In this document: positions 10,683 through 64,000 of the stretch, piece after piece | How positions within the stretch are numbered: position 1 is the stretch's first letter | Layout: every line of letters begins with the position of its first letter | Assembly: GCA_947475735.1 (NCBI GenBank) | Contig: CANJLQ010000004.1 | Location: 160,335 to 224,334, forward strand | Direction of reading: 5' to 3' | Length of the DNA: 64,000 bases | Source of the DNA: Caulobacteraceae bacterium | Lineage (GTDB): Bacteria; Pseudomonadota; Alphaproteobacteria; Caulobacterales; Caulobacteraceae | Position numbers and translations under genes: made by a program | The notes under the pieces: generated by a model | Database searches by the model: none | The model's input: only the letters and a program-made list of their open reading frames with translations | What the model was told of the DNA's origin: nothing

Positions 10683-11309
10683 ATGGTGTTCGTGACGGGT
10701 CTGGCGCTGGCCGTGGTGGCGGTGCTTCTGCTGTTTCCGGAAACGCCGGTCGGGCGGGGACTGCGACGCTGGCTGGTCGAGAAGCCCGCGCGGCGGCTGA
10801 ACCGCGCGACGATCTGGCAGATCCTGTTCGTCTGCGGCCTGCTGATCGCCGGGCTGGTCATGACCCTGGCCTTCGGGTTCGACGGTGGACTCCTCTACGC
10901 CATGATGGCCCCCGAGATCCTGGTCTGGGCGGTCATGTTCGACATCGGCCTGATCATCGACGGCCTGCTGATTACATCGGCCATCCTGGCGTCGAACGGG
11001 GTGCGCATCGCTCGCGCTATGGCGACGGATTGGATCCGGCGCGCCCTCGTCGTCGTGCGGACACCGCGCGCCGCCCGGTCTCGGCGGCCCCGCCGGGTCA
11101 ATCGTCCGGGGCGGAGCCAGGACCCGAAGGCGGAGGGTGGGCTCAGCCCGCGTACCGGGCCTTCAGCATGGCGTAGGCGGCGCGCAGCCCCTGGGCCTCG
11201 CCGCCCTCGGGCCAGCCCGGGCGGCCGCGGCTGTTCCAGGCGAAGACGTCCAGATGGGCCCAGGCGCCCGTCGTCGGGGCGAATTTCTGCAGGAACAGGG
11301 CGGCGGTGA
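10683..11309 (+). CDS. Hypothetical membrane protein (3' end uncertain)
   Basis: Two-plus TM segments; basic C-terminus runs antisense into the downstream aminopeptidase gene. Confidence 0.5.
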   Translation: MVFVTGLALAVVAVLLLFPETPVGRGLRRWLVEKPARRLNRATIWQILFVCGLLIAGLVMTLAFGFDGGLLYAMMAPEILVWAVMFDIGLIIDGLLITSAILASNGVRIARAMATDWIRRALVVVRTPRAARSRRPRRVNRPGRSQDPKAEGGLSPRTGPSAWRRRRAAPGPRRPRASPGGRGCSRRRRPDGPRRPSSGRISAGTGRR

Positions 11310-12537
11310 TCGAGCCCCCTTGCGCCCAGCCGGCGCTGTCGTTCCTGACATCGGCCAGGTCCGAGTCGATCGCGGCGCGGTAGCCGGGCCACAACGGCAT
11401 GCGCCACAGGGGATCGCTGACCTCGGCCGAGGCCTTCAGCAGGTCGGCGGCCAGGGCCTCATCGTCGGTGTAGAGCGGCGGCAGTTCGGGCCCCAGGGCG
11501 ACGCGCGCCGCGCCGGTCAGGGTGGCGAAATCCAGCGTCAGGTCCGGCGCATGCTCGGCGGCCCGGGCGAGGGCGTCGGCCAGGATCAGGCGGCCCTCGG
11601 CATCGGTATTGCCGATCTCGATGGTCAGACCCTTGCGGCTCGACAGGATGTCGCCCGGCCGGAAGGCGTCGGCGGAGATGGCGTTCTCGACCGCCGCGAC
11701 CAGGACGACCAGGCGCACGTCCAGCCCCGCCTGCATGACCAGGCGGCCGAGCGCCAGCGCATGGGCGGCCCCGCCCATGTCCTTCTTCATGTTGCGCATG
11801 CCGGCGGCGGACTTGATGTCGAGGCCTCCGCTGTCGAAGGCGACCCCCTTTCCGACCAGGGCGATCAGGGGCCGGTCGGCGCGGTCCAGGTTCCAGCCGA
11901 TCTCGAGGATACGGGGCGCGCGGTGGGGCGCCGCGGCGCGGCCGACGGCGTGGATAGCCGGATAGTTCTGTTCGATCAGGTCGTCGCCGACGATGACCGA
12001 GATCGTCGCGCCGTGGGCCCCGGCGATCTCGCGGGCAACGGTCTCCATCTGCAGCGGACCCATGTCGGCGGCGGGCGTGTCGACCATCTCGCGGCACAGG
12101 GCGCAGGCGGCGGCGATCCGGTCGGCCTCCTCCACGTCGAAGCCCCCGGGGGCGACCAGACGCACCTCGGCGACGTCGGTGCGGGGCTTGTAGCGGTCGA
12201 ACGCGTAACGCCCCAGCAGGAAGGCCAGGACGGCCGACCGGGCCACCTCGGGCTCGGCCTCGAGCCGATACAGGCCCGTCGGCAGTTTGCCGGACAGGGC
12301 CCGGGTGGTCATCGGATCGAACGTCTTGCCGGCTCCCATCAGGACGTGGTCGATCGCGCCGTCCGCGCCCGGCACGATCAGGACCTGCCCCGGCTTGCCC
12401 TTGAAGCCCATCCGCTCGGCCCAGGCGGCGGCCGGCCCCTCGCCCGCCGCGTCGGGTCCGACGAAGCGAACCGGGATGGCCGTCGCAGCCTCCGGGGCGT
12501 CGGCAGGGACGATCGGGTCGGGCGAGAGGACGGACAT
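11143..12537 (-). CDS. M17 leucyl aminopeptidase family protein
   Basis: VGKGVAFDSGGLDIKSAAGMRNMKKDMGGAA..ENAISADAFRPGDI..NTDAEGRLILADAL. Confidence 0.93.
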   Translation of the reverse strand: MSVLSPDPIVPADAPEAATAIPVRFVGPDAAGEGPAAAWAERMGFKGKPGQVLIVPGADGAIDHVLMGAGKTFDPMTTRALSGKLPTGLYRLEAEPEVARSAVLAFLLGRYAFDRYKPRTDVAEVRLVAPGGFDVEEADRIAAACALCREMVDTPAADMGPLQMETVAREIAGAHGATISVIVGDDLIEQNYPAIHAVGRAAAPHRAPRILEIGWNLDRADRPLIALVGKGVAFDSGGLDIKSAAGMRNMKKDMGGAAHALALGRLVMQAGLDVRLVVLVAAVENAISADAFRPGDILSSRKGLTIEIGNTDAEGRLILADALARAAEHAPDLTLDFATLTGAARVALGPELPPLYTDDEALAADLLKASAEVSDPLWRMPLWPGYRAAIDSDLADVRNDSAGWAQGGSITAALFLQKFAPTTGAWAHLDVFAWNSRGRPGWPEGGEAQGLRAAYAMLKARYAG

Positions 12538-12618
12538 GGCGGGCCTTTGTCGGATTAACCAATGCTTGACGCGAAGCGCCGATTCTTTCCGGCACAGATA
12601 CCCGGATCGGTCCGCCCC

Positions 12619-13455
12619 ATGTCGCTGAACCGCGTCAGAACCTCAATGCTTCTCGCCGCCGCGCTCGGGGCCCTCGCCGCGCCCGCCCTGGCCCAGACCG
12701 CGCCGGCGGAGCCCGCCGCGCCGGCCGTCCGAATCCCGGCCTCGGCGGAGGAACGCGCCGCCTACAACCGGCTGGATCCGCTCGCCCGCTCGGTCTTTTG
12801 GTCGCGCGAGATGGAGGTCAATCCGCTGGACCCGGTCGCCGGGGTCGAGCTGGCCGAGGCCCTGCGCCAGTTGGGACAGCACGAACAGGCGGCCCAGACG
12901 GCGCGTCAGGTGCTGACCACCCAGCCCGGTAATGTCGAAGCCATGCTGGAAATCGGCCGCGCCGAGATCGCGCGCGGTCAGGCCTTCTATGGCATCGCGC
13001 CGCTGGAACAGGCGCGCGACCTGGCCCCGAACGACTGGCGGCCCCTGTCCTTGCTCGGCGTGGCCTATCAGCAGGTGCGCCGGGCCGATGACGCGCAAGG
13101 TGCCTGGCAGCGGGCGCTGGCCCTCTCGCCGGACAATCCGAACATCCTGACCAACGCCGGCATGGCCCTGGCCACCTCGGGCGACGCCGCGGGGGCGGAG
13201 GCCATGCTGCGCCGGGCGGTGGCCCAGCCGACCGCCACGCTGCAGATGCGGCTGAACCTGGCCATGACGCTGGGCCTGCAGGGCAAGATGGCCGAGGCCG
13301 AACAGATCATCCGCCGCGACCTGCCGCCCGAGGCCGCCGAGCGGAACCTGCAGTGGCTGCGGGCCCAGGCCCAGGGACAGGCGATCGCCACGGCGGCCGT
13401 CTCGCCGACCGATCAGGCCTCCGCCCGGACCTGGGGCTCGCTGCAGACGCCCTGA
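12619..13455 (+). CDS. Tetratricopeptide repeat protein, secreted (Tad/Flp-associated-type TPR)
   Basis: Signal peptide LLAAALGALAAPALAQ; TPR-like repeats GQHEQAAQTARQVLTTQPGNVEAMLEIGRAEIARG. Confidence 0.8.
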   Translation: MSLNRVRTSMLLAAALGALAAPALAQTAPAEPAAPAVRIPASAEERAAYNRLDPLARSVFWSREMEVNPLDPVAGVELAEALRQLGQHEQAAQTARQVLTTQPGNVEAMLEIGRAEIARGQAFYGIAPLEQARDLAPNDWRPLSLLGVAYQQVRRADDAQGAWQRALALSPDNPNILTNAGMALATSGDAAGAEAMLRRAVAQPTATLQMRLNLAMTLGLQGKMAEAEQIIRRDLPPEAAERNLQWLRAQAQGQAIATAAVSPTDQASARTWGSLQTP

Positions 13456-50303: not shown

Positions 50304-50969
50304 TCATCGACCCGTCTGCATGCCGCCAACGATCATCTCGGCATAGGTTTCGCCGATCTCCCGTGCCGACTGCTGGGAGGTCTCGGGACGGAACCAGCGA
50401 TGGGTCCAACCGAGAACGCCGAGCATGCCGTAGGCGACGACCCGCGATGGGCCGACGTTTCTCAGGCTGCCGTCCGCATACCCCGCCTCGACGATCTCGA
50501 TGAAGGCGTTCTCGATGATGCGATTGACCTGACGCATGTCCGAGGACCACTTGGTCCGGGAGCCGGACACCCGGCTCAGGTTCTCGCGAATATAGATGAA
50601 CAGCAGAGGATAGTGCTCGCCGTAGGACTCCATGATGGCGACGATCAGCGCCCTCAACTTCTCCGGCGGTGACATTTCGCTCGCGGCGATCTCGGTGGCG
50701 ATTTCGGAGTTCCGCTCGGCGACCGCGCGCAGGACCTCGTCGAACAGCTCTTCCTTGGAGGATATGTAGTAGTAGACCGATGCCCGATCGATCCCCAGTT
50801 CCGCTGCGACGGCGCTGATGCTGGCCCCCTGCAGGCCGAGACGATCAAAGACCCGGACCGCCGCTTCCGCGATCTCGCGACGCCGACGCTTGTAGGCGTC
50901 GGAGCTCTCATGTTTGGCGGCCTTTCGGCGTTTCCCGATACCGCTGGTCTGATCGGTTGAAGCAGTCAT
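50304..50969 (-). CDS. TetR/AcrR family transcriptional regulator
   Basis: EIAEAAVRVFDRLGLQGASISAVAAELGIDRASVYYYISSKEELFDEVL. Confidence 0.93.
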   Translation of the reverse strand: MTASTDQTSGIGKRRKAAKHESSDAYKRRRREIAEAAVRVFDRLGLQGASISAVAAELGIDRASVYYYISSKEELFDEVLRAVAERNSEIATEIAASEMSPPEKLRALIVAIMESYGEHYPLLFIYIRENLSRVSGSRTKWSSDMRQVNRIIENAFIEIVEAGYADGSLRNVGPSRVVAYGMLGVLGWTHRWFRPETSQQSAREIGETYAEMIVGGMQTGR

Positions 50970-51017
50970 TGCCGACCCTGATTACCGATGGAATCGGCAA
51001 ACACCAACGCGTCGCAC

Positions 51018-51776
51018 TCAGCCTTTCGGGCCACCGGCAACATAAAGAACCTGTCCGGTGACGAAGCTCGACCGCTCGTCTGCGAAGAAGGAGACGGCGT
51101 TGGCGACGTCGTCGGGATGGCCGGGACGACCGACGGGGATGTCGCGCACGACCTCGGCGACCATGGCGTCGAAGGACAGGCCCAGGCGCTCCGCAACGCC
51201 GGCCGTCATGGGTGTCACGACGAAGCCTGGGGCCACCACATTGGCTGTTATGCCCGACTTTCCCAGTTCAAGGGCGAGAGACTTGGTCAGGCCGATCACC
51301 CCGGCCTTGGCGGCGGCGTAGTTGGCCTGGCCGTGAGCGCCGAGCGCGGCGATGCTTGCGAGGTTGACGATCCGTCCGTGGCCTCTGGTGCGCATGCCGG
51401 CCTGTACGGCCCGACACATGAGGAAGACCCCGCGCAGGTTGACGTCCTGGACGACCTGCCAGTCCTCAAGGCTCATCTTGGCGACGGTCCGCTCCCGCAG
51501 GATGCCGGCATTGTTCACGAGAACCGCCGCAGGGCCCAGCGCGGCCTCCACCGACGCGACGGCGTGCTCGACCGACCCTTCATCCGCGACGTCCACGGCC
51601 ACACCCAGGGCGTGTCGGCCGAGGGCCTCAACCTTGGCAACAGTCTCGGCGCAGGCCGAGGCGTCCAGATCCATTACGGCGATGTCGCATCCGTCGCGGG
51701 CGAGGCGCTCGGCGATCGCGGCACCGATGCCGCGTGCGGCCCCGGTCACCAGGGCGATCCGTGTGCCCTCGCTCAT
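51018..51776 (-). CDS. SDR family oxidoreductase (FabG/PhaB-like)
   Basis: ALVTGAARGIGAAIAERLARDGCDIAVMD..LVNNAGI..YAAAKAGVIGLTKSLA. Confidence 0.93.
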   Translation of the reverse strand: MSEGTRIALVTGAARGIGAAIAERLARDGCDIAVMDLDASACAETVAKVEALGRHALGVAVDVADEGSVEHAVASVEAALGPAAVLVNNAGILRERTVAKMSLEDWQVVQDVNLRGVFLMCRAVQAGMRTRGHGRIVNLASIAALGAHGQANYAAAKAGVIGLTKSLALELGKSGITANVVAPGFVVTPMTAGVAERLGLSFDAMVAEVVRDIPVGRPGHPDDVANAVSFFADERSSFVTGQVLYVAGGPKG

Positions 51777-53479
51777 GACAGGCCCAGCCGCTCGGCGGCC
51801 ATGCGCGACAGCAGGAACTTGCGCGGGCGGCCAGACGGGGTCAGCGGAACCTCATCCGCTGCGATCGGCAGAATATGGCGGGGTACCTTGAAGCGAGCCA
51901 GCCGTGCGGCGCACCAGTCGATAAGAGTCTGCGGTTCCAGAATGTGTCCAGGTCGAGTGATGATGAAGGCCACGCCGACCTCGCCCATGCGATCATCGGG
52001 TACGGGGGCGACATGGGCCTGGAGCACGGCGGGGTGAACCATGAGGACGTCTTCGATCTCCGACGGGGTGACCTGCTCGCCGCCGCAGCGATAGCTCTCC
52101 TTCACCCGCCCCACGAGCGACAGATAGCCATCCTGGTCGATGCGGCCGAGATCACCCGTGTGCAGCCATCCCTTGGCATCGAACGCCTCGGCCGTAGCGT
52201 CGGGCTTGTCGAAATATCCCTGTGTCACACCCGGGCCCCGAGCCATCAGCTCGCCGACCTCTCCGGGGTTCAGAACGGTGCCCGTCGCCGGGTCCACGAC
52301 CTGGTAGTCAACAAGGCGGTTTTCGATCGCCGGATCGCCTGCCGGCCCGACGTCGCGAAGCCGGCCGTTGGTCGTCTTGAGCCGTTCGGCGGGGTCATCG
52401 GGACGCGTCACTGTCGTGGACGCCGTGCACTCGCTCATCCCATAGCCGGTCGTGATTTCGATCCCCGGGAATGTCTGCAGGATCCGGTCCCACAGTCCGG
52501 GAGGCGTTCGGCCGCCCGAGGACAGCATCGCCTTGAGCGAACCCGTATCGGCAGAACCGGCATCCAGGGCCTCGAGCACGGCGAGGGTCATGGTCGGGAT
52601 GAGGAGGAGGTCGCTCACCTCATGCCGTTCGATGGTTCGCAGCGTCTCGCGAGGATCGAACCTCAGGTGCGGAACCACGGCCCCGCCGACGAACAGGGCG
52701 GCCAGCAGTCCCTCCACATAGCCGTAGACGTGGTTCATCGGCAGGCTGAAGTGGATGCGCCGGCCGTCTTCGAAGGCGCGGGCGTAGGCGCTGCCGAAGG
52801 CGGCGCGCAGCAACATGTCGTGGGTAAGCAGGACGCCCTTGGGCGATCCCGTCGTCCCTGATGTGTAGATGATGTCTGCGGGGGCCTGGGGATCGGCCTT
52901 CACCTGGAACGGTGCTGTCGCGATGAGCGCCTCGAACGAGACTGCCCCGGCGCGGCCTTCGCCCTCGGCCTTGAAAACGGCGATGGAGCGCAGGTCCGGC
53001 AAATCTTCGCCGCCCCCGGCGGTCTCCCAGCCCGGGGCGATGTCATCCAGCATGCCGAGATAGTCGAGATCGCGGAAGCGATCCATGGTGACCAGCAGGG
53101 CCGCCCGGGACTGGCGCAGGACATAGGCCAGTTCGTCCCTGCGGTTCAGGATGTTGACCGGCACCGCGACGCAGCCGACGGCCGCGACAGCGAACTTCAG
53201 GGCCGCGAACGCAGGGTAGTTGGCCATCACGAGCGCAACGTGTTCGCCCGGTCTGAGGCCGGCAGCCTGCAGACCCCCGGCGACTGCGGCGGACCAGTCG
53301 GCCATCTGTCGATAGGTCCACGTTCTGTCGTCTGTGATCAGATAGGGACGATCCGGGTGATGATCCGCCGCCTCCAGCAGCTTCTCGTACAGGGTCCGGG
53401 GAACCCACGGCGAAAAGCGATCCGCAAGCGCAGACTGGCGATCGGCAACGGTCAACAAGGGCGTGCAGGCGGACTTCAT
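51773..53479 (-). CDS. AMP-dependent acyl-CoA synthetase/ligase
   Basis: ADIIYTSGTTGSPKGVLLTHDML..TGYGMSECT..GWLHTGDLGRIDQDGYLSLVGRVKESY. Confidence 0.94.
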   Translation of the reverse strand: MKSACTPLLTVADRQSALADRFSPWVPRTLYEKLLEAADHHPDRPYLITDDRTWTYRQMADWSAAVAGGLQAAGLRPGEHVALVMANYPAFAALKFAVAAVGCVAVPVNILNRRDELAYVLRQSRAALLVTMDRFRDLDYLGMLDDIAPGWETAGGGEDLPDLRSIAVFKAEGEGRAGAVSFEALIATAPFQVKADPQAPADIIYTSGTTGSPKGVLLTHDMLLRAAFGSAYARAFEDGRRIHFSLPMNHVYGYVEGLLAALFVGGAVVPHLRFDPRETLRTIERHEVSDLLLIPTMTLAVLEALDAGSADTGSLKAMLSSGGRTPPGLWDRILQTFPGIEITTGYGMSECTASTTVTRPDDPAERLKTTNGRLRDVGPAGDPAIENRLVDYQVVDPATGTVLNPGEVGELMARGPGVTQGYFDKPDATAEAFDAKGWLHTGDLGRIDQDGYLSLVGRVKESYRCGGEQVTPSEIEDVLMVHPAVLQAHVAPVPDDRMGEVGVAFIITRPGHILEPQTLIDWCAARLARFKVPRHILPIAADEVPLTPSGRPRKFLLSRMAAERLGLS

Positions 53480-53503
53480 GGTCAGGACGCCAAGGCGATG
53501 GGC

Positions 53504-54877
53504 TCAGGGATTCAGCAGTTCGTGGTGGCGACGATACTCGGATCGACCCCAGCCGAAAGCCAGGGCGGCGAGGGCGGTGGAAACCGAGAGGGTCAACCCC
53601 AGCGACATCCCCAAGGCCGCCTCGGAGCGAAACACGAAGTCGTTCAGCAGACCGGGCAACAGGGGGCCCATCGTCAGTCCGCCCAGGTTCGCGATGAACA
53701 GGATCAGCGCGAGCGCCTGGCCCCGGACCTGATTGGGCAGGACCATCTGGGACGCGGCGTAACAACTGCCCGCAGGCATGGCCAGAAGGACCACTCCGAC
53801 AGCGAAGACCGCGACCGTGGCCATTGCGCTGGACCCTTGGGCCCAAAGCAGGGCGACGAAGGCCGCAGTGCCGAAAATCGAGCTGACCATGGCGATCCGA
53901 AGCGCGGCGTCCCGGCGACCCGCGACCAGGCCTCGATCGCTCAAGCGCCCGCCCATCAGCATGCCGAAGCTGCCGCCGATCAGGACCACGAGGCCCATCA
54001 CCAGGCCGGTCTGCTGCGGCGTCCAGTCGAAGGAGCGCTGCAGGACCCCCGGTGACCACAGCATGAAGGCGTAAAGCGCCACGGCCTGGAACATCAGTCC
54101 GAGGGCGATAGCGGCAACGGCCACGCGGCGTTTGGCGATCTCGGCGACCGTTTCGGCAATGCTCAGTCGGGCGACGGCCCCATCCTGGGCCACGAGGGCC
54201 TTGCGCCGCCTGGGCTCTCGAAGGGTCAGAACCCACAGGGCAACCAAGAGTCCGGGAATGCCCGTGACCAGAAAGGTTGCTCGCCACGAGGCGATCTCGC
54301 CAAAAACAGGCAGTGTCAGGGTCGCGGTCTGGGTGACCAGCTGGACGACCAGTCCGCCGACCAGAAGCGCCAGACCGGATCCGAGGTAGATGCCCACCCC
54401 ATAGAGGCTCATTGCGGCACCCAGCTTCTCGTTTGGAAAGCTGTCGGAAATCATCGACACAGCCGCAGGCGCGAGGGTGGCCTCGCCGACCCCGACACCC
54501 ATGCGGGCGAGAAAGAGACCCGGATAGCCCGTGGCGACAGCGCAGGCCGCTGTCATCAGGCTCCAGAAGAAGACGCCTGCCGCGATGATATTGCGCCGGT
54601 TGAAACGGTCCACCAGCCTGCCCGCCGGCAGGCTGACCAGGGTGTAGAACAGTGAGAAGGCGAGGCCACCCAACAGGCCGACCTGGGTGTCGGAGACCGC
54701 GAACTCGGCCTTGATGGGACCAACGAGCAGGCTCAGGATTTGACGGTCGATGAACGACAGCGTGTAGCAAACGGTCAGGACAGCGACCGTGTACCAGGCA
54801 TAACCGCCCGGGCTCTGTCCCTCCAAAGAAGGGGCCGCCGGACCTTTCGATCCGGCGACCTGGGAGGTTTCAGTCAT
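53504..54877 (-). CDS. MFS transporter (spinster-like)
   Basis: 12-TM MFS; VLTVCYTLSFIDRQILSLLVGPIKAEFAVSDTQVGLLGGLAFSLFYTL. Confidence 0.93.
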   Translation of the reverse strand: MTETSQVAGSKGPAAPSLEGQSPGGYAWYTVAVLTVCYTLSFIDRQILSLLVGPIKAEFAVSDTQVGLLGGLAFSLFYTLVSLPAGRLVDRFNRRNIIAAGVFFWSLMTAACAVATGYPGLFLARMGVGVGEATLAPAAVSMISDSFPNEKLGAAMSLYGVGIYLGSGLALLVGGLVVQLVTQTATLTLPVFGEIASWRATFLVTGIPGLLVALWVLTLREPRRRKALVAQDGAVARLSIAETVAEIAKRRVAVAAIALGLMFQAVALYAFMLWSPGVLQRSFDWTPQQTGLVMGLVVLIGGSFGMLMGGRLSDRGLVAGRRDAALRIAMVSSIFGTAAFVALLWAQGSSAMATVAVFAVGVVLLAMPAGSCYAASQMVLPNQVRGQALALILFIANLGGLTMGPLLPGLLNDFVFRSEAALGMSLGLTLSVSTALAALAFGWGRSEYRRHHELLNP

Positions 54878-57357
54878 CAGAACCGAGCCGCGAACTGGAG
54901 AGCGATCTCGCGGCCGCGAGCCACCACGCCACGTTGCTCGCCGATGGCACCAGGCACACTGGCTCCACCGGTCCGGTCCGCGGCGTAGAGGATGTAGGTC
55001 TCATCCGACAGGTTCCGTCCGAGGAGCTGGACCGTGTACCGGTCGTCGGGCGAGGTTAGCGTCAGGCCCGCGTTGTAGCGCCAGAACGAGTCCTGGAGTG
55101 CGGAGGGGGCCATGGTCTCCGAGGCGAAGTAGGAGCCGCTGTAGAAGGCATCTCCCGTCAGCGCGAGGTTGAAGCCGGCGATCTGGGTCTCATAGGTGAA
55201 ACCTGCGCTACCCGCCCATTCCGGGGCCCTTGCGGGCGCCCGACCCTCGAAGTCCTGCTGCAGGGTCAGAGCGGTCGCATTGACGAAGGAGCAGTTCGCG
55301 GGAGCCACAGCCGTCGCCCGGACCGTTCCGGTCGGGAACGCGTAGGAATAGCACTGCCCGACGAAGTCGCGGAACTGGGCGTCGACATAGGCGATCGCGC
55401 CGCGCACCTCGAGACCGTCGGTCAGCTGCCACCGCGCGTCGGCCTCGAAGCCGCGTTGCTGGACTTCGCCGGCGTTGTTGATCGTGTAGGCGATACGAGC
55501 AGGGTCGTAGGTGTTCACCTGCAGATCTTCGAACGTGTAGGCGAAGGCGGCGAAGTTGGCGCGGATCCGACCCTGGTCGAAGATGCCCTTGGCCCCGAAC
55601 TCGAAGCCCGACGCGGACTCGGCGTCAAAGTCGATGTCCCCGATCCGGGTCGTCGTCTGCTGTGGGCTGGTCAATCCGAAACCGCCCGACTTGTATCCGG
55701 TCTTGTAGGCCAGGAAGAAGGTCCGGTTGGACGATGGCCGCCAGGTGATCGTCGCCTCGGGCGACACGTTGTCGTCCTCGAACTGACCCACGATGTCGCC
55801 CGGCACCGTGGAGCCCGGATAGACGGTCGATTGGGTCGCGAAGGTTCCGATGCCGTACAGGTTGCGCTTGGCGAAATCCTTGGTCTCACGTGTCCAGCGC
55901 AGACCGCCCGCGATCTCGATCGTGTCGCTGATGTCATAGAGAACCTGGCCGAAGATGGACTGTGTCTCACCGTCCTGCTGGGCGAGATCCTCGTAGGTCA
56001 CGAAGCGTCCGGAAGCCGCGCTATAGCTGCTGTCGCGCAGCTTGGTGTCGTTGGTGGTGTAGAGGTCGGTCCACTGGAAGAAGGCCCCGAGCATGAAGTT
56101 CAGCGGTCCGGAGTAGTCGCTGGTCAGGCGGAACTCCTGGCTGATCTCCTGATTGGTCTGGCGATTGTAGAAGGCCAGCTGGGAATAGGTCGTCTGGTCG
56201 AGACCGGACAGGAACTCGTACTGGGTGGAGTTGTAGCCTGTTGTTGACACGAGGTTCAGCGTCTCGCTGAGGGCCCAATCGAACTCCAGCACGCCGGTGA
56301 AGACGTCCAGTTCGCCATAGGCCCGGCCGTTTCCACGATAGCCGCGCATCGTACGAGCGATCGCGTCAGGAAGATCGCCGCTGGTCGTGCGGTTGTCTGC
56401 GACGCAATCAGCGAAGGGGTCCGCGATCCCATAGACCCTCGGGTTGGAGCCGCCGGAACAGGCTCCGATGTTCTGCGTCGCGACACCGGGTCCGGCGTCT
56501 TCGTTGTGACCGGCGAACAGCTTCAGACGTGCGGTGATCGTCGGAGCGATCTCCGCTTCGATCGTGAGGCGGCCGAGGATCTCTTCGTCGCCGGGACGGG
56601 AATCTGCCGTGCCGGGCAGCGTCGCGGCACCGGCGGGTGCGCCCGTCGCCGCGACGTAGAAGGGGTTGGCGATGGGCTGGGCCGTGTTGGTCAGCCAGCC
56701 GTCCAGGTTGCGATAACGCAGAGCGAGACGAGCCGACAGGCCCTCGGCGATCGGGCCTGAGAGATAGCCCTCGAGCGTGGCCTCGTCGCCTTCGAACTCA
56801 TAGCCGGCGCGAATGCCGGCCTCGAAGACATCCGTCGGATTCGCCGAGCTGATCGAGATCACACCCGCGGGGCTGTTCTTTCCGAAGAAGAGGGCCTGGG
56901 GCCCTTTCAGGACCTCCACCTGCTCCAGATCGAAAAAGCCCATCTGGGTGATGCGGCCATCGCTGGTCTGGACGCCATCGATCGCCACTGACACCGCCTG
57001 CTCGAAGCCGGTCTGGTTGGCCGGAGAGCTGATGCCGCGGATGGCGACGGATCCGCCGCCATTGGACTTGTAGGCCCCGACGACCACGGTCGGGGTCAGT
57101 TCGCCGATCCGCGACAGGTCGTCGGCGCGGTTTCGTTCGAGTGTTTCAGCGCTCACGACATTGACGACGACCGGAACGCTGATCAGCGTCTCCGACCGGC
57201 GACGCGCGGTGACCACGATGTCGTCGACTGTCGATGTCCCGTCTTGCCCCGCCTGGGCCGTGCCGGGTGCGTCCTGTGCAGCGACAGGCTGGGCGAACGT
57301 GACGATGAGCGCACCGGCGGCGCTCGCCATCAAAAGCGACTTGGTGGTGACAGCCAT
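54877..57357 (-). CDS. TonB-dependent receptor
   Basis: STVDDIVVTARRRSETLISVPVVVNVVSAETLERN..VEVLKGPQALFFGKNSPAGVISISSANPT; C-terminal ALQFAARF. Confidence 0.94.
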   Translation of the reverse strand: MAVTTKSLLMASAAGALIVTFAQPVAAQDAPGTAQAGQDGTSTVDDIVVTARRRSETLISVPVVVNVVSAETLERNRADDLSRIGELTPTVVVGAYKSNGGGSVAIRGISSPANQTGFEQAVSVAIDGVQTSDGRITQMGFFDLEQVEVLKGPQALFFGKNSPAGVISISSANPTDVFEAGIRAGYEFEGDEATLEGYLSGPIAEGLSARLALRYRNLDGWLTNTAQPIANPFYVAATGAPAGAATLPGTADSRPGDEEILGRLTIEAEIAPTITARLKLFAGHNEDAGPGVATQNIGACSGGSNPRVYGIADPFADCVADNRTTSGDLPDAIARTMRGYRGNGRAYGELDVFTGVLEFDWALSETLNLVSTTGYNSTQYEFLSGLDQTTYSQLAFYNRQTNQEISQEFRLTSDYSGPLNFMLGAFFQWTDLYTTNDTKLRDSSYSAASGRFVTYEDLAQQDGETQSIFGQVLYDISDTIEIAGGLRWTRETKDFAKRNLYGIGTFATQSTVYPGSTVPGDIVGQFEDDNVSPEATITWRPSSNRTFFLAYKTGYKSGGFGLTSPQQTTTRIGDIDFDAESASGFEFGAKGIFDQGRIRANFAAFAYTFEDLQVNTYDPARIAYTINNAGEVQQRGFEADARWQLTDGLEVRGAIAYVDAQFRDFVGQCYSYAFPTGTVRATAVAPANCSFVNATALTLQQDFEGRAPARAPEWAGSAGFTYETQIAGFNLALTGDAFYSGSYFASETMAPSALQDSFWRYNAGLTLTSPDDRYTVQLLGRNLSDETYILYAADRTGGASVPGAIGEQRGVVARGREIALQFAARF

Positions 57358-57448
57358 GGCTTCCCCCTGATGTTTCCGACCTTGCCGCCGTGCGCCCGTC
57401 TTCTGCGAGTCCTTGCGACATCGTCAGGAAGACCCTCATCTGATGAAC

Positions 57449-57468
57449 TGTCAATACTGGTGTTGACA
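57449..57468. promoter_or_regulatory. Candidate operator 1, TGTCAATACTGGTGTTGACA
   Basis: Inverted repeat TGTCAA-N8-TTGACA between the divergent TonB receptor and MaoC-like genes. Confidence 0.6.
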
Positions 57469-57472
57469 AAAA

Positions 57473-57488
57473 TCAACGACCGCGTTGA
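57473..57488. promoter_or_regulatory. Candidate operator 2, TCAACGACCGCGTTGA
   Basis: Inverted repeat TCAAC-N6-GTTGA; core matches TCAACGATAGTGTTGA at 63589-63604. Confidence 0.55.
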
Positions 57489-57577
57489 TGATGCCGTCCG
57501 GAGACCTGAACCCCAGTCCATAAAAAGGGGGAACGGGTCCCATCGCGGCCATTGCCGTTCTTCTGGAGGATCATGAC

Positions 57578-58024
57578 GTGGACGGATCTGGAGCCTCGCT
57601 CCCGCAGGATATCGCGATCACGATCGACACCCCGGTCGGCTATCGCCTGCAAAGCCTGAGAAAGAAGGCCGCGATCCAGCTCATGGGATCTCGCCTCTGG
57701 GGCCGGTTCAATCCCAACCATTGGGATCCCGTCTACGCCGCCGCCACAGGCCTCAAGGCACCGATCCAGACGGGTGAGATGTCATCGGCCTACATCGCTG
57801 AGATGTGCGTCAACCACTTCGGTGCGGCTTTCTTCAGGGGCGCCCGGGTGGTCTGCAAATATGTGGCCTCGACCTATGCGGACGAGATCATCTCGACCCA
57901 CGGTGTTGTTCGCGAGAAGACGCCCAAGGGGGCCGGCTTCCGCTTCATCGTCGATGTGTGGGCCGAGAACGAGGCCGGAGAGAAGAAGACCGCCGGCTGG
58001 GTTGAAGTCGATGTCGGCGTCTGA
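57578..58024 (+). CDS. MaoC-like hotdog dehydratase-family protein (subunit 1; GTG start)
   Basis: MGSRLWGRFNPNHWDPVYAAATGLKAPIQTGEMSSAYIAEMC; SD-like ctggagga upstream. Confidence 0.78.
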   Translation: MDGSGASLPQDIAITIDTPVGYRLQSLRKKAAIQLMGSRLWGRFNPNHWDPVYAAATGLKAPIQTGEMSSAYIAEMCVNHFGAAFFRGARVVCKYVASTYADEIISTHGVVREKTPKGAGFRFIVDVWAENEAGEKKTAGWVEVDVGV

Positions 58025-58052
58025 CGCTGAAGGGGCAGGAGGAACCACCGCC

Positions 58053-58586
58053 ATGACGCCGCTACCCGCCACCGACGGCCTGAAACCCATGAGCCCAATC
58101 CAGGCGCGCCAAACCCGCGCGTTCATAGACGGTCTGGCCTCGGAGGCCCGTCCATACTGGGACATGGTCGAGATCGGCGATGAGCTGTCGCGCGATCTTC
58201 ATCTCTCCGCCGAGCTGGTCATCCTCTATGCGGATGGCGTCGAGGACTTTAATCCCTGGTACGAAGGCTGGCGGATGAACTCCTGGCACATCGAGGGCCA
58301 GTCTCCCTTCGGGGGAGCCATCGTGCCGCCGCTGCTCGTCTCTCACTTCGTCCTGTCGGTGCAATTCGACGCGACCCGGCCGTTCTCGATCGGCTCCATC
58401 CACACCTTCCACGACTCGGAAATCGTGGAGCCGATCCTGGTGGGAACCACGGTCCGGATCACGACCCGGGCGGTCGAGAAGTTCGAAAAGCGCGGGCGGC
58501 GTTATGTCCGGCATGCCGTCGAGGTCACGGACGTGGAGGACAACCGGGTCTACTTCCGAGAGACCCGAGACATCCTCTCGCTTTGA
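58053..58586 (+). CDS. MaoC-like hotdog protein (subunit 2)
   Basis: VILYADGVEDFNPWYEG..SPFGGAIVPPLLVSHF..IHTFHDSEIVEPILVGTTVRITTRAVEKFEKRGRRYV. Confidence 0.75.
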   Translation: MTPLPATDGLKPMSPIQARQTRAFIDGLASEARPYWDMVEIGDELSRDLHLSAELVILYADGVEDFNPWYEGWRMNSWHIEGQSPFGGAIVPPLLVSHFVLSVQFDATRPFSIGSIHTFHDSEIVEPILVGTTVRITTRAVEKFEKRGRRYVRHAVEVTDVEDNRVYFRETRDILSL

Positions 58587-58598
58587 TCGGCCCGTGTG

Positions 58599-59030
58599 AT
58601 GGACAGCACAACCCTCAGGCCGGTCGTCGATGAAATCCTCAAGCTCGATCAGGCTGGCGCTCACCTGCTGGGCAGCGCCTGCCAGGATTGCGATACGGTC
58701 TATTTCCCACCCGTGTTGAGCTGTCGGAACCCCGACTGCGCGGGCAAGACCATCGTCCCCTTTCATTTGGAAGGCGCAGGGGTGCTCTTCAGCTTCACGG
58801 TCCAGCGCTATCGTCCCCCGGCCTTGTTCGCCCTGGAGCCGTGGGAGGCCTATGCCATCGGCTCCGTGGATCTCGCCGGCGGGGTCAGGGTCTTGGGGAT
58901 CATCCGGGCCCCGTTCGATCAGCTCAGCCCAGGCCTGGCGGTCCGACTTTCGACCTCTGTGATCAACGACGGCGACGAGGGTGCGGTCATCACCCATGTC
59001 TTCGTTCCGGATGAGGATGGCCAGGGATGA
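58599..59030 (+). CDS. DUF35 OB-fold / zinc-ribbon acyl-CoA-associated protein
   Basis: LLGSACQDCDTVYFPPVLSCRNPDCAGKTI..GVLFSFTVQRYRPP. Confidence 0.88.
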   Translation: MDSTTLRPVVDEILKLDQAGAHLLGSACQDCDTVYFPPVLSCRNPDCAGKTIVPFHLEGAGVLFSFTVQRYRPPALFALEPWEAYAIGSVDLAGGVRVLGIIRAPFDQLSPGLAVRLSTSVINDGDEGAVITHVFVPDEDGQG

Positions 59031-60217
59031 GGCCGGTCTATGTCCTCGGCGTCGGGGCCCATCCCTGGGGCAAGTGGCCCGACACGCCACAGGTGGGTCT
59101 GGCCATTCACGCCATGAAGGCCGCGCTGACGGAGGCGAACCTCGAATGGCGCGACCTTCAGGGCCTCGTCGCCGCCAGCTCGCGCTTCGAGGGCGGAATG
59201 GGATGGGGACTTCACGCCAATGAACTGGCCCAGGCCGTCTCCGAGCACGGGATGGCCTGCGTCAATGTCGGGGGGGCCTGCGCCGCCGGAGCTGTCGCCT
59301 TTCACACGGCCCAAATGATGGTGGCCAGCGGTCAGTACGACACCGTGGCCACCCTCGGGGCCGAGCGTATGCCCAAGGGATTCATCCCCCGCCCGCCGGG
59401 GGCTGCAGACGATCCGACGGACCATGACTTCCTGCGATGGAAGACCATCGGGGCGACCAATCCCGCCTACTGGGCGATGGAAGCCCGCCGCCGAATGTAT
59501 GAGGTAGGCACGACCGAGGAAACCTTCGCCGCCGCGTCCGTGCTCATGCGGCGTCATGGCGCTCACAACCCCTATGCCCGGTTTCGCACGCCCTCGAGCG
59601 TCGATGAGGTGATGGCCTCGCCCATGGTCAGCGATCCGCTGCGACTTCTCGAAATCTGCGCGGTCAGCGACGGGGCGGCCTCGGTCATCCTGGGATCCGA
59701 GGCGCAGGCTCGCCGGAGCGGAGGTCCCCTCATCCAGGTCGCGGGCAGCGCCATCGCCACAGGCCAGTTCGGCGACCCGGCCACCCGCATTCCCATGGTC
59801 GGCTCGACGCCTCGGCCGGGGGTCGCCCACACCAGCGAAGTCGTCGGCGCTGTTCAGAAGGCCTGGAAGGCGGCCAGCATCGGTCCAGAGGATGTCGACC
59901 TGCTGGAACTCGCAGACAATACGGCGTGGCACGTCCTCGCCTGGCCTGAGATGCTGGGATTCTTCGAGTCGGGCGAAAGCGACCGCAGGCTGGCAGCCGG
60001 CGACCTTCAGGTCGGCGGACGACTGCCGATCAATCCCAGCGGGGGCTTCCTGTCCTTCGGCGAAGCGACGACCGCGCAGGCGCTTCTGCAGATTTGCGAG
60101 CTATTCTGGCAGCTCCGGGGACAGGCCGGCGGACGGCAGGTGGAAAACGCCCGGATCGCCATGTCGGCCGTGCTCGGCCTTGGCGCCAACGGGGGCTCCG
60201 TGGTGCTGAAGCGATGA
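59027..60217 (+). CDS. Thiolase-fold protein of the SCP2/lipid-transfer (Ltp) type
   Basis: ACVNVGGACAAGAVAFHTAQMMVASGQYDTVATLGAERMPKGF..NPSGGFLSFGEATTAQALLQICELFWQLRGQAGGRQVENA. Confidence 0.9.
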   Translation: MRPVYVLGVGAHPWGKWPDTPQVGLAIHAMKAALTEANLEWRDLQGLVAASSRFEGGMGWGLHANELAQAVSEHGMACVNVGGACAAGAVAFHTAQMMVASGQYDTVATLGAERMPKGFIPRPPGAADDPTDHDFLRWKTIGATNPAYWAMEARRRMYEVGTTEETFAAASVLMRRHGAHNPYARFRTPSSVDEVMASPMVSDPLRLLEICAVSDGAASVILGSEAQARRSGGPLIQVAGSAIATGQFGDPATRIPMVGSTPRPGVAHTSEVVGAVQKAWKAASIGPEDVDLLELADNTAWHVLAWPEMLGFFESGESDRRLAAGDLQVGGRLPINPSGGFLSFGEATTAQALLQICELFWQLRGQAGGRQVENARIAMSAVLGLGANGGSVVLKR

Positions 60218-60999
60218 ATGCCGCAGTTCAGCTCGACGTGCAGGACGGCGTGGCCCTCATGACCCTGTCCCGTCCGGAGACCGGCAACGCGGTCAGCCAG
60301 GATGTCGCGGACGGGTTGCTGGCGGCTGCGCTTGCCTGCGAGTCCGACGACAAGGTTCGCAGTGTCCTCCTGACCGCGCAGGGCACCGCGTTCTGTGTCG
60401 GGGGCGACGTCAGGGCTTTCGCAGAGGCCGGCGACGGCATGCCGTCGCTGGTTCGGCGTCTGACCGCGTCCCTCCACATGGCGGTGGCGCGGCTCGCTCG
60501 CATGGACAAGCCTTTGGTCACGGCGGTCAACGGCGCTGCAGCGGGTGCCGGTCTGGGCCTGGCCGTTCTTGGCGACATCGCCCTGGCGGCGCGATCCGCG
60601 AAGTTCACCGCCGCCTATGGTGCCCTGGGACTGACGCCCGACGCCGGGGCGACCTGGCTGTTGCCGCGTCTGGTCGGTCTCAGACAAGCCCAGAGACTGT
60701 TGCTGCTCAACGATCGGATCGATGCGGTCGAGGCGGAACGGATTGGACTGATCACGCAGGTTGTCGAGGATAACGCGCTCGCAGCCGAAGCGCTGGAGCG
60801 TGCCTCCCGGCTTGCGAAGGCTCCCCGCAGAGCCTTCGGCAGAACACGGGGCCTGCTCTATGCGGCCATGGCCAATGGTCTGGAGACCCAGCTCGAGCTG
60901 GAAGCCCAGTCCATTGCCGAGGCCGCCGGGTCCGGGGAAGGGCACGAGGGGGTCGCGGCGTTCGTCTCCAGGCGGTCAGCCGACTTCGGGTCGATCTGA
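60214..60999 (+). CDS. Enoyl-CoA hydratase/isomerase family protein
   Basis: GTAFCVGGDVRAFAEAG..PLVTAVNGAAAGAGLGLAVLGDIALAARSAKFTAAYGALGLTPDAGATWLLPRLVG. Confidence 0.93.
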   Translation: MNAAVQLDVQDGVALMTLSRPETGNAVSQDVADGLLAAALACESDDKVRSVLLTAQGTAFCVGGDVRAFAEAGDGMPSLVRRLTASLHMAVARLARMDKPLVTAVNGAAAGAGLGLAVLGDIALAARSAKFTAAYGALGLTPDAGATWLLPRLVGLRQAQRLLLLNDRIDAVEAERIGLITQVVEDNALAAEALERASRLAKAPRRAFGRTRGLLYAAMANGLETQLELEAQSIAEAAGSGEGHEGVAAFVSRRSADFGSI

Positions 61000-61932
61000 A
61001 GGCCCGGATCCGTCGACGGTCAAGGATCGCCTCAGCGCATCGGACAGCCAAGCCAGGGCCTCGTCGCCGCGTCTGGAACCGCCCGGCAAGCCGACGAAGC
61101 CGTGAATCATGTCGCCGAAATGTTCGGCTGACACCTCAACGCCTGCGGCTCGAGCCCGGTCAACGAACTGCAGGCCCTCGTCCCTGAGCGGATCATGGCC
61201 GGCGGTGATCACGGCCGTTGGCGGCAAGGAAGAAAGGTCTGCGCGCGTCAGATCAAAGAGGGGGTCGCCCGAGTGATTGCCTTCCCCCCTGTAGGCCGAC
61301 CATGCCCAGTCCAGAAAGGCGCCCGTCAGCATGTGACCCTTGCCAAACCTCACCTGAGACGCGCTTGTCCGGGACGGATCGATGCACGGATACAGCAGCC
61401 CGAGAGCCTGGACCGGAGATCGCTTTGCCGCGCAGTCGAGCGCGGTCGCAATCGCCAGCTGGGCACCCGCGCTGTCACCGGCCAACCCCACCCGTCTGGG
61501 TCTCAGCGTGGAGCGAACCCAGGCCACCGCAGCCGCCGTGTCTTCCAGCGCCGCTGGATAGGGGTGTTCCGGCGCCAGTCGATAATCGACGGACGCGACG
61601 GTCACGCCTGAGGCGATCGAGAGACGACGGCAGAGCGCGTCATGGGTCTCCAGATCCCCGAACACGAAGGCACCCCCGTGGAAGAAGACGATGATCGCAT
61701 CCAGCGAAGCGTTCGGCGGGAGAAAGAGTCGCCCGGCGATTCGCTCGGCACCGGTGATCTCGATGTCTTCGACCCGGATGGTATCCGGACGAACACCCTT
61801 TGCCAGAAAGGCGTTCGCGGCCTCGCGGATCTGGACCGCCGAAAGACCCTCGGACGGAGGACGAAGCGCCATCCGGGGGTCGGCCACCAAGACGGCGATA
61901 TCAGGGTCCAGCAGCTCCTCAGGAGGCTTCAC
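60976..61932 (-). CDS. Alpha/beta hydrolase (HSL/acetyl esterase-like; GTG start proposed)
   Basis: FFHGGAFVFGDLETHDALCR (HGG oxyanion hole), VGLAGDSAGAQLAIATAL (GDSAG), ITAGHDPLRDEG. Confidence 0.92.
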   Translation of the reverse strand: MKPPEELLDPDIAVLVADPRMALRPPSEGLSAVQIREAANAFLAKGVRPDTIRVEDIEITGAERIAGRLFLPPNASLDAIIVFFHGGAFVFGDLETHDALCRRLSIASGVTVASVDYRLAPEHPYPAALEDTAAAVAWVRSTLRPRRVGLAGDSAGAQLAIATALDCAAKRSPVQALGLLYPCIDPSRTSASQVRFGKGHMLTGAFLDWAWSAYRGEGNHSGDPLFDLTRADLSSLPPTAVITAGHDPLRDEGLQFVDRARAAGVEVSAEHFGDMIHGFVGLPGGSRRGDEALAWLSDALRRSLTVDGSGPSDRPEVG

Positions 61933-63550
61933 GGAGGCTCTCGCGACGACGCAGGTCAAAGCCCTCGTAGCCGTTCGCGGCCGTCTTTTCGAGGATCCGA
62001 CGATAGCCGCGAACGCCCCCGGAGTACGGCATGAAGACCCGGGGTTTTCCAGGCATTTCCGCGCCTACGTAGTAGGATGGGGTCGTCATGTAGAGGGTTT
62101 GCTGGGCGCGTTCATTGACGTGGGCGACCCAGGTTCGGACGGCATCTGGGGTCGCCTCGACTTCCATGATGCCGTCTCGGCGGGCGACGTCGAACAACTC
62201 GGCAAGCCAGTCGATCTGCTCCTCGCTCGACAGAAGCACATTGCTCAGCAGCGATGGGCTGCCGGGACCGCCGATAAAGAACAGGTTGGGGAAACCGTCG
62301 ACGGCGATTCCCAGATGGCTCGCCGGGCCGCCCGCCCAAGCCGCCTTCAGCGTCTGGCCCTCGCGCCCCGTGATGTCGATCTTGAGGATCGACCCGGTGA
62401 AGACGTCGAACCCTGTTGCATAGATCACGATGTCGAACGGCAGGTCCTGATCGCTCGTGCGGATGCCGTGCGGCGTAAACCGCTGGATCGGCATCTCGCT
62501 GATATCCACGAGGGAGACATTGGGCCGGTTGAATGTCTTGAAGTAGCCGCCATCGACCGAAGGGCGCCGCGTGCCGAAGGCGAAGCCGCGCGGCACCAGT
62601 TTGTCGCGCAGGCCGGGATCCTCGATCTGTTCAGCGATCTTGCGCTGGACGAAGGCCGAAGCGATGTCGTTGGCCTCCTGGTTCAGCAGGATGTCCTTGA
62701 ACGTCAGCGCAAAGCCGAATCCGAGCCGGTTCCAGGCGGCCTCGAAGGCGGCCTCGCGTTCGTGCGGATCGACCTCGGCCGCCGACCTGGGATCCGGCTT
62801 GAAGCCGAGACCGCTGGGCGAGTTTCGGGCCGCCTCTCTGCGAGCGCGGTAGTCCGCCTTGACGGCCCTATCTTCCTCTTGCGTGAGCGGCGCGTTTGCG
62901 GCCGGAATCGAATAGTTCGCCGTGCGCTGGAACACCGTCAGATGGGCCGCCTGGGCGGCGATGATCGGCGTCATCTGAACGCCCGAAGACCCAGTTCCGA
63001 TGATGGCCACGCGCTTGCCGGAGAAGTCGACGGGTTCGCGGGGCCAGCGCGCGCTGTAGATGATCCTGCCCTCGAAGGTCTCCTGGTCGGGATAGGTCGT
63101 GGCCTTGGGTTCTGACAACTGTCCGACCGCGACGACGAAGCGCGCTGCGGTGAACCTGCTCCGGTTCTCCGTCTCGATGGTCCAGCGGCACGTCTCTTTG
63201 TCATAGGCCGCCCGGCGGACGCGGGTCGACAGGTCGATGTCCTTGCGAAGGTCGAACCGGTCGGCGACGTGATTGATGTAGCTCAGGATCTCGGGCTGGG
63301 TCGCGTAGCGTTCCGTCCAGCGCCATTCCTGCTCCAGCGCCTCGGAGAAGCGGTAGGAGTAGTCGAAGCTCTCCACGTCGCAGCGCGCGCCTGGATAGCG
63401 GTTGTAGTTCCAAACGCCCCCGATCTCGTCCGAGGTCTCCAGCACCCGCGTGCGGAAGCCCTGTTCGCGGAAGGTGTGTAGCGCGCGAAGGCCAGCGAAG
63501 CCCGCGCCGACGATCAGGACATCGAGGTCGACATTCTTGGTCATGGCCAT
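61919..63550 (-). CDS. NAD(P)/FAD-dependent monooxygenase, Baeyer-Villiger / cyclohexanone monooxygenase-like
   Basis: VLIVGAGFAGLRALHTFREQGF, GGVWNYNRYPGARCDVES, FSGKRVAIIGTGSSGVQMTPIIA, HLTVFQRTANY. Confidence 0.9.
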   Translation of the reverse strand: MAMTKNVDLDVLIVGAGFAGLRALHTFREQGFRTRVLETSDEIGGVWNYNRYPGARCDVESFDYSYRFSEALEQEWRWTERYATQPEILSYINHVADRFDLRKDIDLSTRVRRAAYDKETCRWTIETENRSRFTAARFVVAVGQLSEPKATTYPDQETFEGRIIYSARWPREPVDFSGKRVAIIGTGSSGVQMTPIIAAQAAHLTVFQRTANYSIPAANAPLTQEEDRAVKADYRARREAARNSPSGLGFKPDPRSAAEVDPHEREAAFEAAWNRLGFGFALTFKDILLNQEANDIASAFVQRKIAEQIEDPGLRDKLVPRGFAFGTRRPSVDGGYFKTFNRPNVSLVDISEMPIQRFTPHGIRTSDQDLPFDIVIYATGFDVFTGSILKIDITGREGQTLKAAWAGGPASHLGIAVDGFPNLFFIGGPGSPSLLSNVLLSSEEQIDWLAELFDVARRDGIMEVEATPDAVRTWVAHVNERAQQTLYMTTPSYYVGAEMPGKPRVFMPYSGGVRGYRRILEKTAANGYEGFDLRRRESLREAS

Positions 63551-63586
63551 CTCCCTGTCGAAAATCGTGACACGGCGGCAGCAAAC

Positions 63587-63606
63587 CGTCAACGATAGTG
63601 TTGATA
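63587..63606. promoter_or_regulatory. Candidate operator 3, CGTCAACGATAGTGTTGATA
   Basis: Shares GTCAA-N8-TTGA architecture with 57449-57468; lies between the monooxygenase and mmsA starts. Confidence 0.6.
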
Positions 63607-63696
63607 GCGGTCAGGTCGGGCGCTAGGCTCCCCGAGGGTTTCAGAAAACGGCTTTCAGACGAGCCGTTTCATGATCGCTTTCAGGGAAACGCTCGC

Positions 63697-64000
63697 ATGC
63701 GCGACATCCATCATTTCATCGACGGCGCGTCCTTCACCGGATCGTCGGGCCGGTTCGGCGACGTGTTCAATCCGAACACCGGCGAGGTCCAGGCGCGCGT
63801 CCAGCTGGCGACCGAGGCCGAGATGGACCGAGCGGTCCAGGCCGCCCAGAACGCCTTCGAGGGCTGGTCCTCGACCAATCCCCAGCGCCGCGCGCGGGTG
63901 ATGTTCGAGTTCAAGCGGCTGGTCGAGGCGAACATGACCGAGCTGGCCGAGCTGCTGAGCTCCGAGCACGGCAAGGTCGTGGCCGACTCCAAAGGCGACA
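63697..64000 (+). CDS. mmsA: Methylmalonate-semialdehyde dehydrogenase (N-terminal part, cut by window edge)
   Basis: MRDIHHFIDGASFTGSSGRFGDVFNPNTGEVQARVQLATEAEMDRAVQAAQNAFEGWSSTNPQRRARVMFEFKRLVEANMTELAELLSSEHGK. Confidence 0.88.
   Translation, partial: MRDIHHFIDGASFTGSSGRFGDVFNPNTGEVQARVQLATEAEMDRAVQAAQNAFEGWSSTNPQRRARVMFEFKRLVEANMTELAELLSSEHGKVVADSKGD

Follow-up and report, generated by a model that had tools for sequence, protein, structure and literature searches.

A conserved catabolic gene cluster in a Caulobacteraceae genome and its proposed role in the degradation of beta-methyl-branched acids

Introduction

What is degraded by a gene cluster that joins an acyl-CoA ligase and a MaoC/DUF35/thiolase-like module to a Baeyer-Villiger monooxygenase (BVMO) and an esterase, and in which order do these enzymes act? 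Such a cluster lies at the end of a 64,000-nucleotide stretch of DNA from Caulobacteraceae bacterium (assembly GCA_947475735.1), which is referred to here as the window and forms the final 64 kb of contig C4 in a genome of 3.47 Mb, 26 contigs and 99.99% completeness. Named relatives place this genome in Brevundimonas. The first-pass annotation of this DNA had described a single uncharacterised catabolic locus. This reading is supported, as the locus combines uptake and CoA activation with a hydratase/lyase module, a BVMO and an esterase. A search of the literature found no paper on a BVMO together with DUF35/MaoC, nor on a Brevundimonas BVMO cluster.

Beta-methyl branches block normal beta-oxidation, and for terpenoids, apocarotenoids and surfactant residues it is understood only in part how bacteria overcome them. 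The proposal made here, which we consider evenly balanced between right and wrong, is that the cluster is a substrate-induced, horizontally acquired regulon under TetR control which degrades a beta-methyl-branched acid, possibly of plant origin and probably already 2,3-unsaturated, by retro-aldol cleavage followed by Baeyer-Villiger oxidation. The gene content, the co-conservation across phyla, the operator, the superfamilies and the altered active sites are observations, from which we infer the role of TetR as reader of the operator, the reactions, their order and the substrate class.

Organization of the locus

Open reading frames and domain searches delineate three operons between 50304 and the contig end, together with the 5' end of an mmsA-like gene on the plus strand. 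Operon 1 (minus strand) is TetR-SDR-ligase-MFS-TonB receptor, SDR being a short-chain dehydrogenase/reductase, and it is divergent from operon 2 (plus strand), which is MaoC1-MaoC2-DUF35-thiolase-like-ECH, ECH being an enoyl-CoA hydratase/isomerase. Operon 3 (minus strand) is BVMO-esterase and converges on ECH. The gene content and the divergence of the first two operons had been read correctly at the outset; the hydrolase and the BVMO, placed then in line with ECH, form this third operon and do not continue the plus-strand one. The features, in window coordinates, are as follows.

50304..50969, minus: TetR-family regulator (PF00440/PF17932); 42-98% conserved in most syntenic loci
51018..51776, minus: SDR oxidoreductase (PF13561, FabG-like); in most loci, about 58-92% in close ones
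51773..53479, minus: AMP-forming acyl-CoA ligase, core (PF00501/PF13193); 57-92% in most loci including Actinomycetota
53504..54877, minus: MFS transporter (PF07690)
54877..57357, minus: TonB-dependent receptor (PF00593/PF07715); operator upstream here and in relatives
57451..57466, no strand: predicted operator that departs from TCAACRNNNNYGTTGA at one position; 22 bp from the exact copy, a distance also kept in L045-L051
57473..57488, no strand: predicted operator TCAACGACCGCGTTGA in the TonB/MaoC1 divergent promoter; exact TCAAC-N6-GTTGA site
57578..58024, plus: MaoC1, putative MaoC-like hydratase subunit (PF01575, 25.6 bits, just under the cut-off)
58053..58586, plus: MaoC2, putative divergent hot-dog/MaoC subunit; no Pfam match, assigned by AlphaFold and Foldseek
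58596..59030, plus: DUF35/OB-fold zinc-ribbon partner (PF01796, PF12172); four conserved Cys (C..C...C.nP.C)
59027..60217, plus: thiolase-superfamily SCP2-type enzyme, proposed retro-aldolase (NF004715, 520 bits, over the cut-off)
60214..60999, plus: ECH, accessory (PF00378)
60976..61959, minus: hormone-sensitive lipase (HSL)-type alpha/beta hydrolase (esterase), start codon uncertain (PF07859; LipP1-like, 246 bits)
61919..63550, minus: type I BVMO homologue of the steroid/phenylacetone monooxygenase group (PDB 4ap3, 574 bits; 1w4x, 571 bits)
63589..63604, no strand: predicted operator TCAACGATAGTGTTGA between BVMO and mmsA; exact site, 39 bp upstream of the BVMO ATG
63697..64000, plus: 5' part of the gene for an mmsA-like aldehyde dehydrogenase, truncated at the contig end and peripheral (TIGR01722, 90 bits on the fragment)

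At 65.4% G+C the cluster lies below the opening 50 kb of the window (70.3%), which is consistent with its horizontal acquisition.

Conservation and spread of the gene unit

With the thiolase-like protein as query, a scan of the GTDB species genomes gave 38 loci, 27 of which encode the protein at 63% identity or more; the remaining matches have 31-39% identity and fall mostly in Chloroflexi and archaea. The set of 30 loci considered below also takes in the window, one Sphingopyxis plasmid, and L099 and L101 from a separate family survey. These loci come from Brevundimonas, Marinicauda, sphingomonads, Comamonadaceae, Patulibacter, Nocardioides and one metagenome-assembled genome (MAG) of Frankiales, so that the unit spans Alpha- and Betaproteobacteria and Actinomycetota. 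Its core consists of the ligase, MaoC1, MaoC2, DUF35, the thiolase-like protein and the BVMO, usually with the esterase, SDR, TetR and TonB receptor. The order MaoC1-MaoC2-DUF35-thiolase-like is identical in every complete copy, and a BVMO lies within 10 kb of this module in 22 of the 30 loci, several of the other eight being contigs too short to judge. The ligase, SDR, TetR, TonB receptor and esterase recur with their order and orientation reshuffled among lineages. L099, which was left out when the pattern was defined, has a matching gene set. The sensitivity of the GTDB scan was partial, as L099 and L101, two of the eight Sphingomonadaceae copies, had been missed.

A synteny search had been named from the start as the check on the locus, with unrelated neighbours as the outcome that would speak against it; the same core was instead found in 30 loci. 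With this core and a common operator (see below), the cluster is a real functional unit and its genes are together by more than chance proximity.

The unit is rare. A close MaoC1 copy occurs in only two of 385 sampled Alphaproteobacteria, and MaoC2 occurs in eight of 401 Sphingomonadaceae, each time at 73% identity or more. Since MaoC2 matches at that level or not at all, it is a clean and highly specific marker of the cluster. It was found in one of 72,556 plasmids and had no match in a scan of viral contigs. The copy on plasmid pSFD01 of Sphingopyxis FD7 (L037, 14217-32730) is flanked by a Tn3-family transposase and an IS3 element in the manner of a catabolic transposon. Two versions of the cluster (L047 and L065) coexist in Brevundimonas subvibrioides MAG 32-68-21, one of the Brevundimonas type and the other grouping with sphingomonads. 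The distribution, the gene tree and the plasmid copy flanked by Tn3 and insertion sequences point to horizontal transfer.

A shared operator

Two intergenic regions of the window have a common 16-bp palindrome, TCAAC-N6-GTTGA. Its refined form TCAACRNNNNYGTTGA, TCAAC[AG]N4[CT]GTTGA, has 48 exact sites in the 30 loci against 0.05 expected from a first-order Markov shuffle, counts that carry no probability because the loci are not independent and the R/Y refinement was read off the same sites. In 16 control loci (279 kb), TCAACRNNNNYGTTGA has no site. Among the 30 loci the operator stands upstream of MaoC1 in 22, of the BVMO in 18 and of the TonB receptor in 16. The window's own genome (3.47 Mb) contains four exact TCAAC-N6-GTTGA sites, and the only two with R/Y flanks are both in the cluster, in the TonB/MaoC1 promoter and in the BVMO promoter. 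The shared operator hence ties the BVMO to the rest of the cluster, and the three operons apparently form one regulon that is switched on together. The TetR of the cluster is the candidate reader of the operator, as it is conserved in most of the loci. A search of the same genome for the KstR family was uninformative, giving generic TetR matches only. With a specific operator and MaoC2 as its specific marker gene, so compact a regulon is open to tests through genome searches, RNA-seq and assays.

The thiolase-like protein and its DUF35 partner

Compared with SCP2-type thiolases, the thiolase-like protein keeps the nucleophilic Cys and lacks the GHP His and the HDCF motif. The alignment has HDCF replaced by ADN[TS] and GHP by GEA in every family member; the His that normally activates the Cys is Glu, and the His/Cys of HDCF are Ala/Asn. 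Cys85 occurs without exception in the members examined and in the Chloroflexi/archaeal relatives, and the conserved signature reads C85, D297-N298-[TS]-x-W and G345-E346-A. Judged by these residues, the active site appears unlike the characterised ones compared here. The AlphaFold model of the protein has a mean pLDDT of 77 and a pTM of 0.84. Profile and fold searches rank SCP2/archaeal thiolases and BbsB first and place Ltp2 and Sal lower.

Among the closest known systems are the steroid side-chain aldolases Ltp2-ChsH2(DUF35) (PDB 6ok1) and Sal-Shy(DUF35) (PDB 9myr), in which a single operon likewise encodes a thiolase-fold protein, its DUF35 partner and MaoC hydratase(s). The zinc-ribbon partner of these aldolases has its counterpart in the cluster (PF01796/PF12172, four conserved Cys). 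The characterised aldolases carry YDHF in Ltp2, and YDCY with Gly at the Cys position in Sal (PMC12329534). In contrast, the cluster protein has ADN[TS] in place of YDHF/YDCY and Cys where Sal has Gly, its MaoC and DUF35 are separate proteins, and there is no pair of acyl-CoA dehydrogenases (ACADs). Neither YDHF nor YDCY is present in any family member, which rules out filing the protein as Ltp2 or Sal. The label 'retro-aldolase-like' in the first-pass annotation is therefore not borne out by the sequence, which has the catalytic motif of neither characterised aldolase (PMC12329534); a retro-aldolase function is proposed here from the operon logic and not from sequence motifs. The benzoylsuccinyl-CoA thiolase BbsAB (PDB 7pxp) also pairs a thiolase with DUF35 and is among the best sequence matches (148 bits), but BbsB has HD and GHP motifs (LHDAF, GHP) where the cluster protein has ADN[TS] and GEA. 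If the proposal is true, this protein would add a chemistry to the thiolase superfamily.

Nine Chloroflexi/archaeal relatives with 37-39% identity have the same Cys/DN/GEA set and form the sister clade of the family with full support in the tree. The DUF35/thiolase-like pairs with this set in Chloroflexi and archaea (Nezhaarchaeota, Thermoprotei) are found at L072-L080. At L074 and L078, ACADs lie just upstream of the pair, and no MaoC1/MaoC2 homologue was found there.

The MaoC subunits

In an alignment to the R-hydratase 1iq6 and the family, MaoC1 keeps N-P-N-H (His48) and has Arg where the catalytic Asp is expected. MaoC2 keeps the acidic residues E64 and D65 and has Tyr instead of His. The Asp/His catalytic dyad is thus incomplete within either chain, and MaoC1 and MaoC2 may together form one remodelled site. 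MaoC2 matches nothing in Pfam or NCBIfam, and none of its sequence matches in the PDB is convincing; its putative MaoC/hot-dog identity comes from an AlphaFold model of modest quality (mean pLDDT 68), which Foldseek matches to MaoC-like hydratases (E 2e-7) and also to ChsH1-ChsH2 and Comamonas Shy.

The Baeyer-Villiger monooxygenase

Steroid monooxygenase (STMO) converts a methyl ketone to an acetate ester. The closest PDB matches of the cluster BVMO are STMO (4ap3, 574 bits) and phenylacetone monooxygenase (PAMO; 1w4x, 571 bits), with which it has full-length homology and the active-site Arg in common (PAMO R337; GTRR of the BVMO aligns to GTKR of PAMO). Both Rossmann motifs, GAGFAG and GTGSSG, are present. 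The fingerprints of type I BVMOs are [A/G]GxWxxxx[F/Y]P[G/M]xxxD and FxGxxxHxxxW[P/D] (PMC4498894). The protein matches the first (GGVWNYNRYPGARCD) and departs from the second (FEGRIIYSARWP), with Tyr for His; unlike in 4ap3 and 1w4x, this position is Tyr in the alphaproteobacterial orthologues, while it is His in the beta- and actinobacterial ones. The cluster monooxygenase is formally off-fingerprint, yet on these sequence features it should work like a BVMO.

Near the cluster of L060, a second BVMO (43%) and another hydrolase (40%) lie side by side (10581-13180), preceded by a CoA-transferase III. This second pair could open a ring ketone.

The proposed pathway

In the proposed pathway the TonB receptor and the MFS transporter would import the acid, and the ligase would convert it to the acyl-CoA. 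A MaoC1/MaoC2 heteromer would then add water across the trisubstituted double bond, giving a tertiary 3-hydroxyacyl-CoA, which the DUF35/thiolase-like pair would cleave in a retro-aldol reaction to a methyl ketone, R-CO-CH3, and acetyl-CoA. The STMO/PAMO-type BVMO would turn the methyl ketone into the acetate ester R-O-CO-CH3, the HSL esterase would release acetate and R-OH (an aldehyde if R is vinylic), and the SDR would oxidize this product further. Retro-aldol cleavage is suggested because the hydratase pair feeds a non-canonical DUF35/thiolase-fold enzyme, and a tertiary carbinol derived from a beta-methyl acid would give a methyl ketone, the substrate for an STMO-type reaction and then for the adjacent esterase. 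The core has no ACAD (11 are encoded elsewhere in the genome), in keeping with an acid that is already unsaturated, and an HCDH-type 3-hydroxyacyl-CoA dehydrogenase is also missing from the cluster. In L063, L064 and L066 the module has a genuine acetate-CoA ligase linked to it, which is consistent with acetate release.

Two published pathways run in the same direction. Comamonas testosteroni KF-1 degrades 3-(4-sulfophenyl)butyrate through 4-sulfoacetophenone and an aryl acetate to a phenol (PMC3746432), and the genes of this linear alkylbenzenesulfonate (LAS) pathway for SAPMO (PD5437) and the 4-sulfophenylacetate esterase (PD5438) are adjacent in a transposon-framed segment (PMC3746432). The likeness, from beta-methyl acid to aryl methyl ketone to BVMO to esterase, is one of reaction logic; the transposon-framed segment resembles the pSFD01 copy, and unlike in the LAS pathway no sulfonate gene is seen in the present cluster. 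Similarly, Rhodococcus sp. P1Y converts abscisic acid (ABA) to dehydrovomifoliol, a methyl ketone, and on to rhodococcal acid (PMC9599779; PMC7996341). A BVMO was proposed by the authors for this route, whose enzymes are unknown there (PMC9599779), and papers on ABA-degrading bacteria call the pathway or the enzymes unknown (PMC7996341; PMC9599779; PMC6938937). The P1Y intermediates are those expected if the present enzyme set acted on ABA.

We infer a terpenoid or apocarotenoid acid such as ABA, or an aryl-butenoate, as the substrate class. ABA is one candidate among several, which include geranic, farnesoic and phytenic acids and aryl-butenoates; it fits a core without an ACAD because it would need none. 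The most far-reaching form of the proposal, namely a new class of acyl-CoA retro-aldolase (Cys/Asn/Glu, thiolase fold with DUF35), a split-dyad hydratase and a mobile pathway for apocarotenoid acids such as the plant hormone ABA, is unlikely in our estimate. On that reading rhodococcal acid, a tertiary 3-hydroxy acid, could undergo a second cleavage by the same enzyme type. MaoC2 was not found in plasmid pP6W1, the part searched of the ABA degrader Novosphingobium P6W.

Several points weigh against the retro-aldol proposal. The SDR could act as a 3-hydroxyacyl-CoA dehydrogenase, which would make the module one of ordinary beta-oxidation. The thiolase-like protein has the Tyr of neither known aldolase and keeps the nucleophilic Cys, so that thiolytic or other chemistry is possible. 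There is no BVMO near the module in L063, L064, L066 and L101. An HCDH/ACAD operon carries the operator in Comamonas-type loci, and saturated substrates may hence be handled too. Finally, no known ABA degrader is among the named matches of the GTDB scan, which missed two of the eight family members found later.

Alternative pathways

The order assumed at first, with the BVMO acting early and C-C cleavage coming last, is the foremost alternative: a ketone is taken up and oxidized by the BVMO to an ester or lactone, which the hydrolase opens to an acid for activation by the ligase, and beta-oxidation through MaoC/DUF35/thiolase completes the route. Every enzyme class for it is present, and BVMO, esterase and ligase in succession is a common catabolic order. 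However, STMO/PAMO types acting on methyl ketones give acetate esters, in which the acid part would be only acetate and a specialised module needless, and the module occurs without a BVMO in L063, L064 and L066, so that it can act before or without one. The two published pathways also run the opposite way (PMC3746432; PMC7996341; PMC9599779). The reverse order is thus the likelier, and the ketone-first order is possible at a clearly lower level of belief.

An ordinary beta-oxidation tail is improbable. The MaoC pair would hydrate, the SDR would form the 3-ketoacyl-CoA and Cys85 would perform thiolysis, with the BVMO on a separate branch. The invariance of Cys85 in the examined members and the Chloroflexi/archaeal relatives suits this scheme, as does the wide co-conservation of the SDR, but the exchange of the GHP His for Glu and of the HDCF His/Cys for Ala/Asn in every member speaks against thiolysis.

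Removal of a steroid or bile-acid side chain (ChsH1-ChsH2-Ltp2 or Shy-Sal type, with STMO, esterase and SDR taking off a pregnane-type side chain), a substrate that the first-pass annotation had also considered, is the most doubtful of all: although STMO is the best PDB match of the BVMO and the module resembles MaoC/DUF35/thiolase-fold aldolases, the 99.99% complete genome has no KshA_C match, the cluster lacks a ChsE1-ChsE2-type dehydrogenase pair and the YDHF and YDCY motifs, and the thiolase-like protein has SCP2/archaeal thiolases and BbsB as closer relatives than Ltp2 or Sal.

Peripheral and accessory genes

ECH and mmsA, which had been counted in the pathway at first, are present and do not belong to the conserved unit, each being limited to Caulobacterales or Brevundimonas-type loci. 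ECH at its present position is confined to the Caulobacterales loci L045-L051. The mmsA-like gene adjoins the BVMO in only four other loci, of Caulobacteraceae (L045-L048), and is rejected as a core gene on this ground. It starts at about 63697 and only its first 100 codons are contained in the window, which ends with contig C4. Near-identical mmsA 5' ends occur at the ends of C4 and C6, and mmsA 3' ends at the start of C9 and the end of C24; the two mmsA-like copies are 96% identical over 324 bp, with identity beginning about 20 bp before the ATG, and such near-identical copies explain the assembly break. The copy at 63697-64000 lies behind the BVMO operator and was possibly recruited into the regulon.

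Other genes accompany the module in particular lineages. In L063, L064, L066, L068 and L069 its neighbour is a 2-hydroxyacid dehydrogenase, FMN-dependent and of the lactate dehydrogenase type, and an Amidohydro_2 protein has a similar accessory place in L054, L058 and L059, the amidohydrolase being preceded by the operator in L054 and L058. Accessory operons behind the operator include HCDH (before ACAD) in L053 and L055, an ABC transporter in L070 and an SDR in L058. Behind operator-like sites, an aldehyde dehydrogenase is found with an ABC transporter in L071 (9506-15006) and with a pyrroloquinoline quinone (PQQ) alcohol dehydrogenase in L063 (4088-7617), which is consistent with an aldehyde intermediate.

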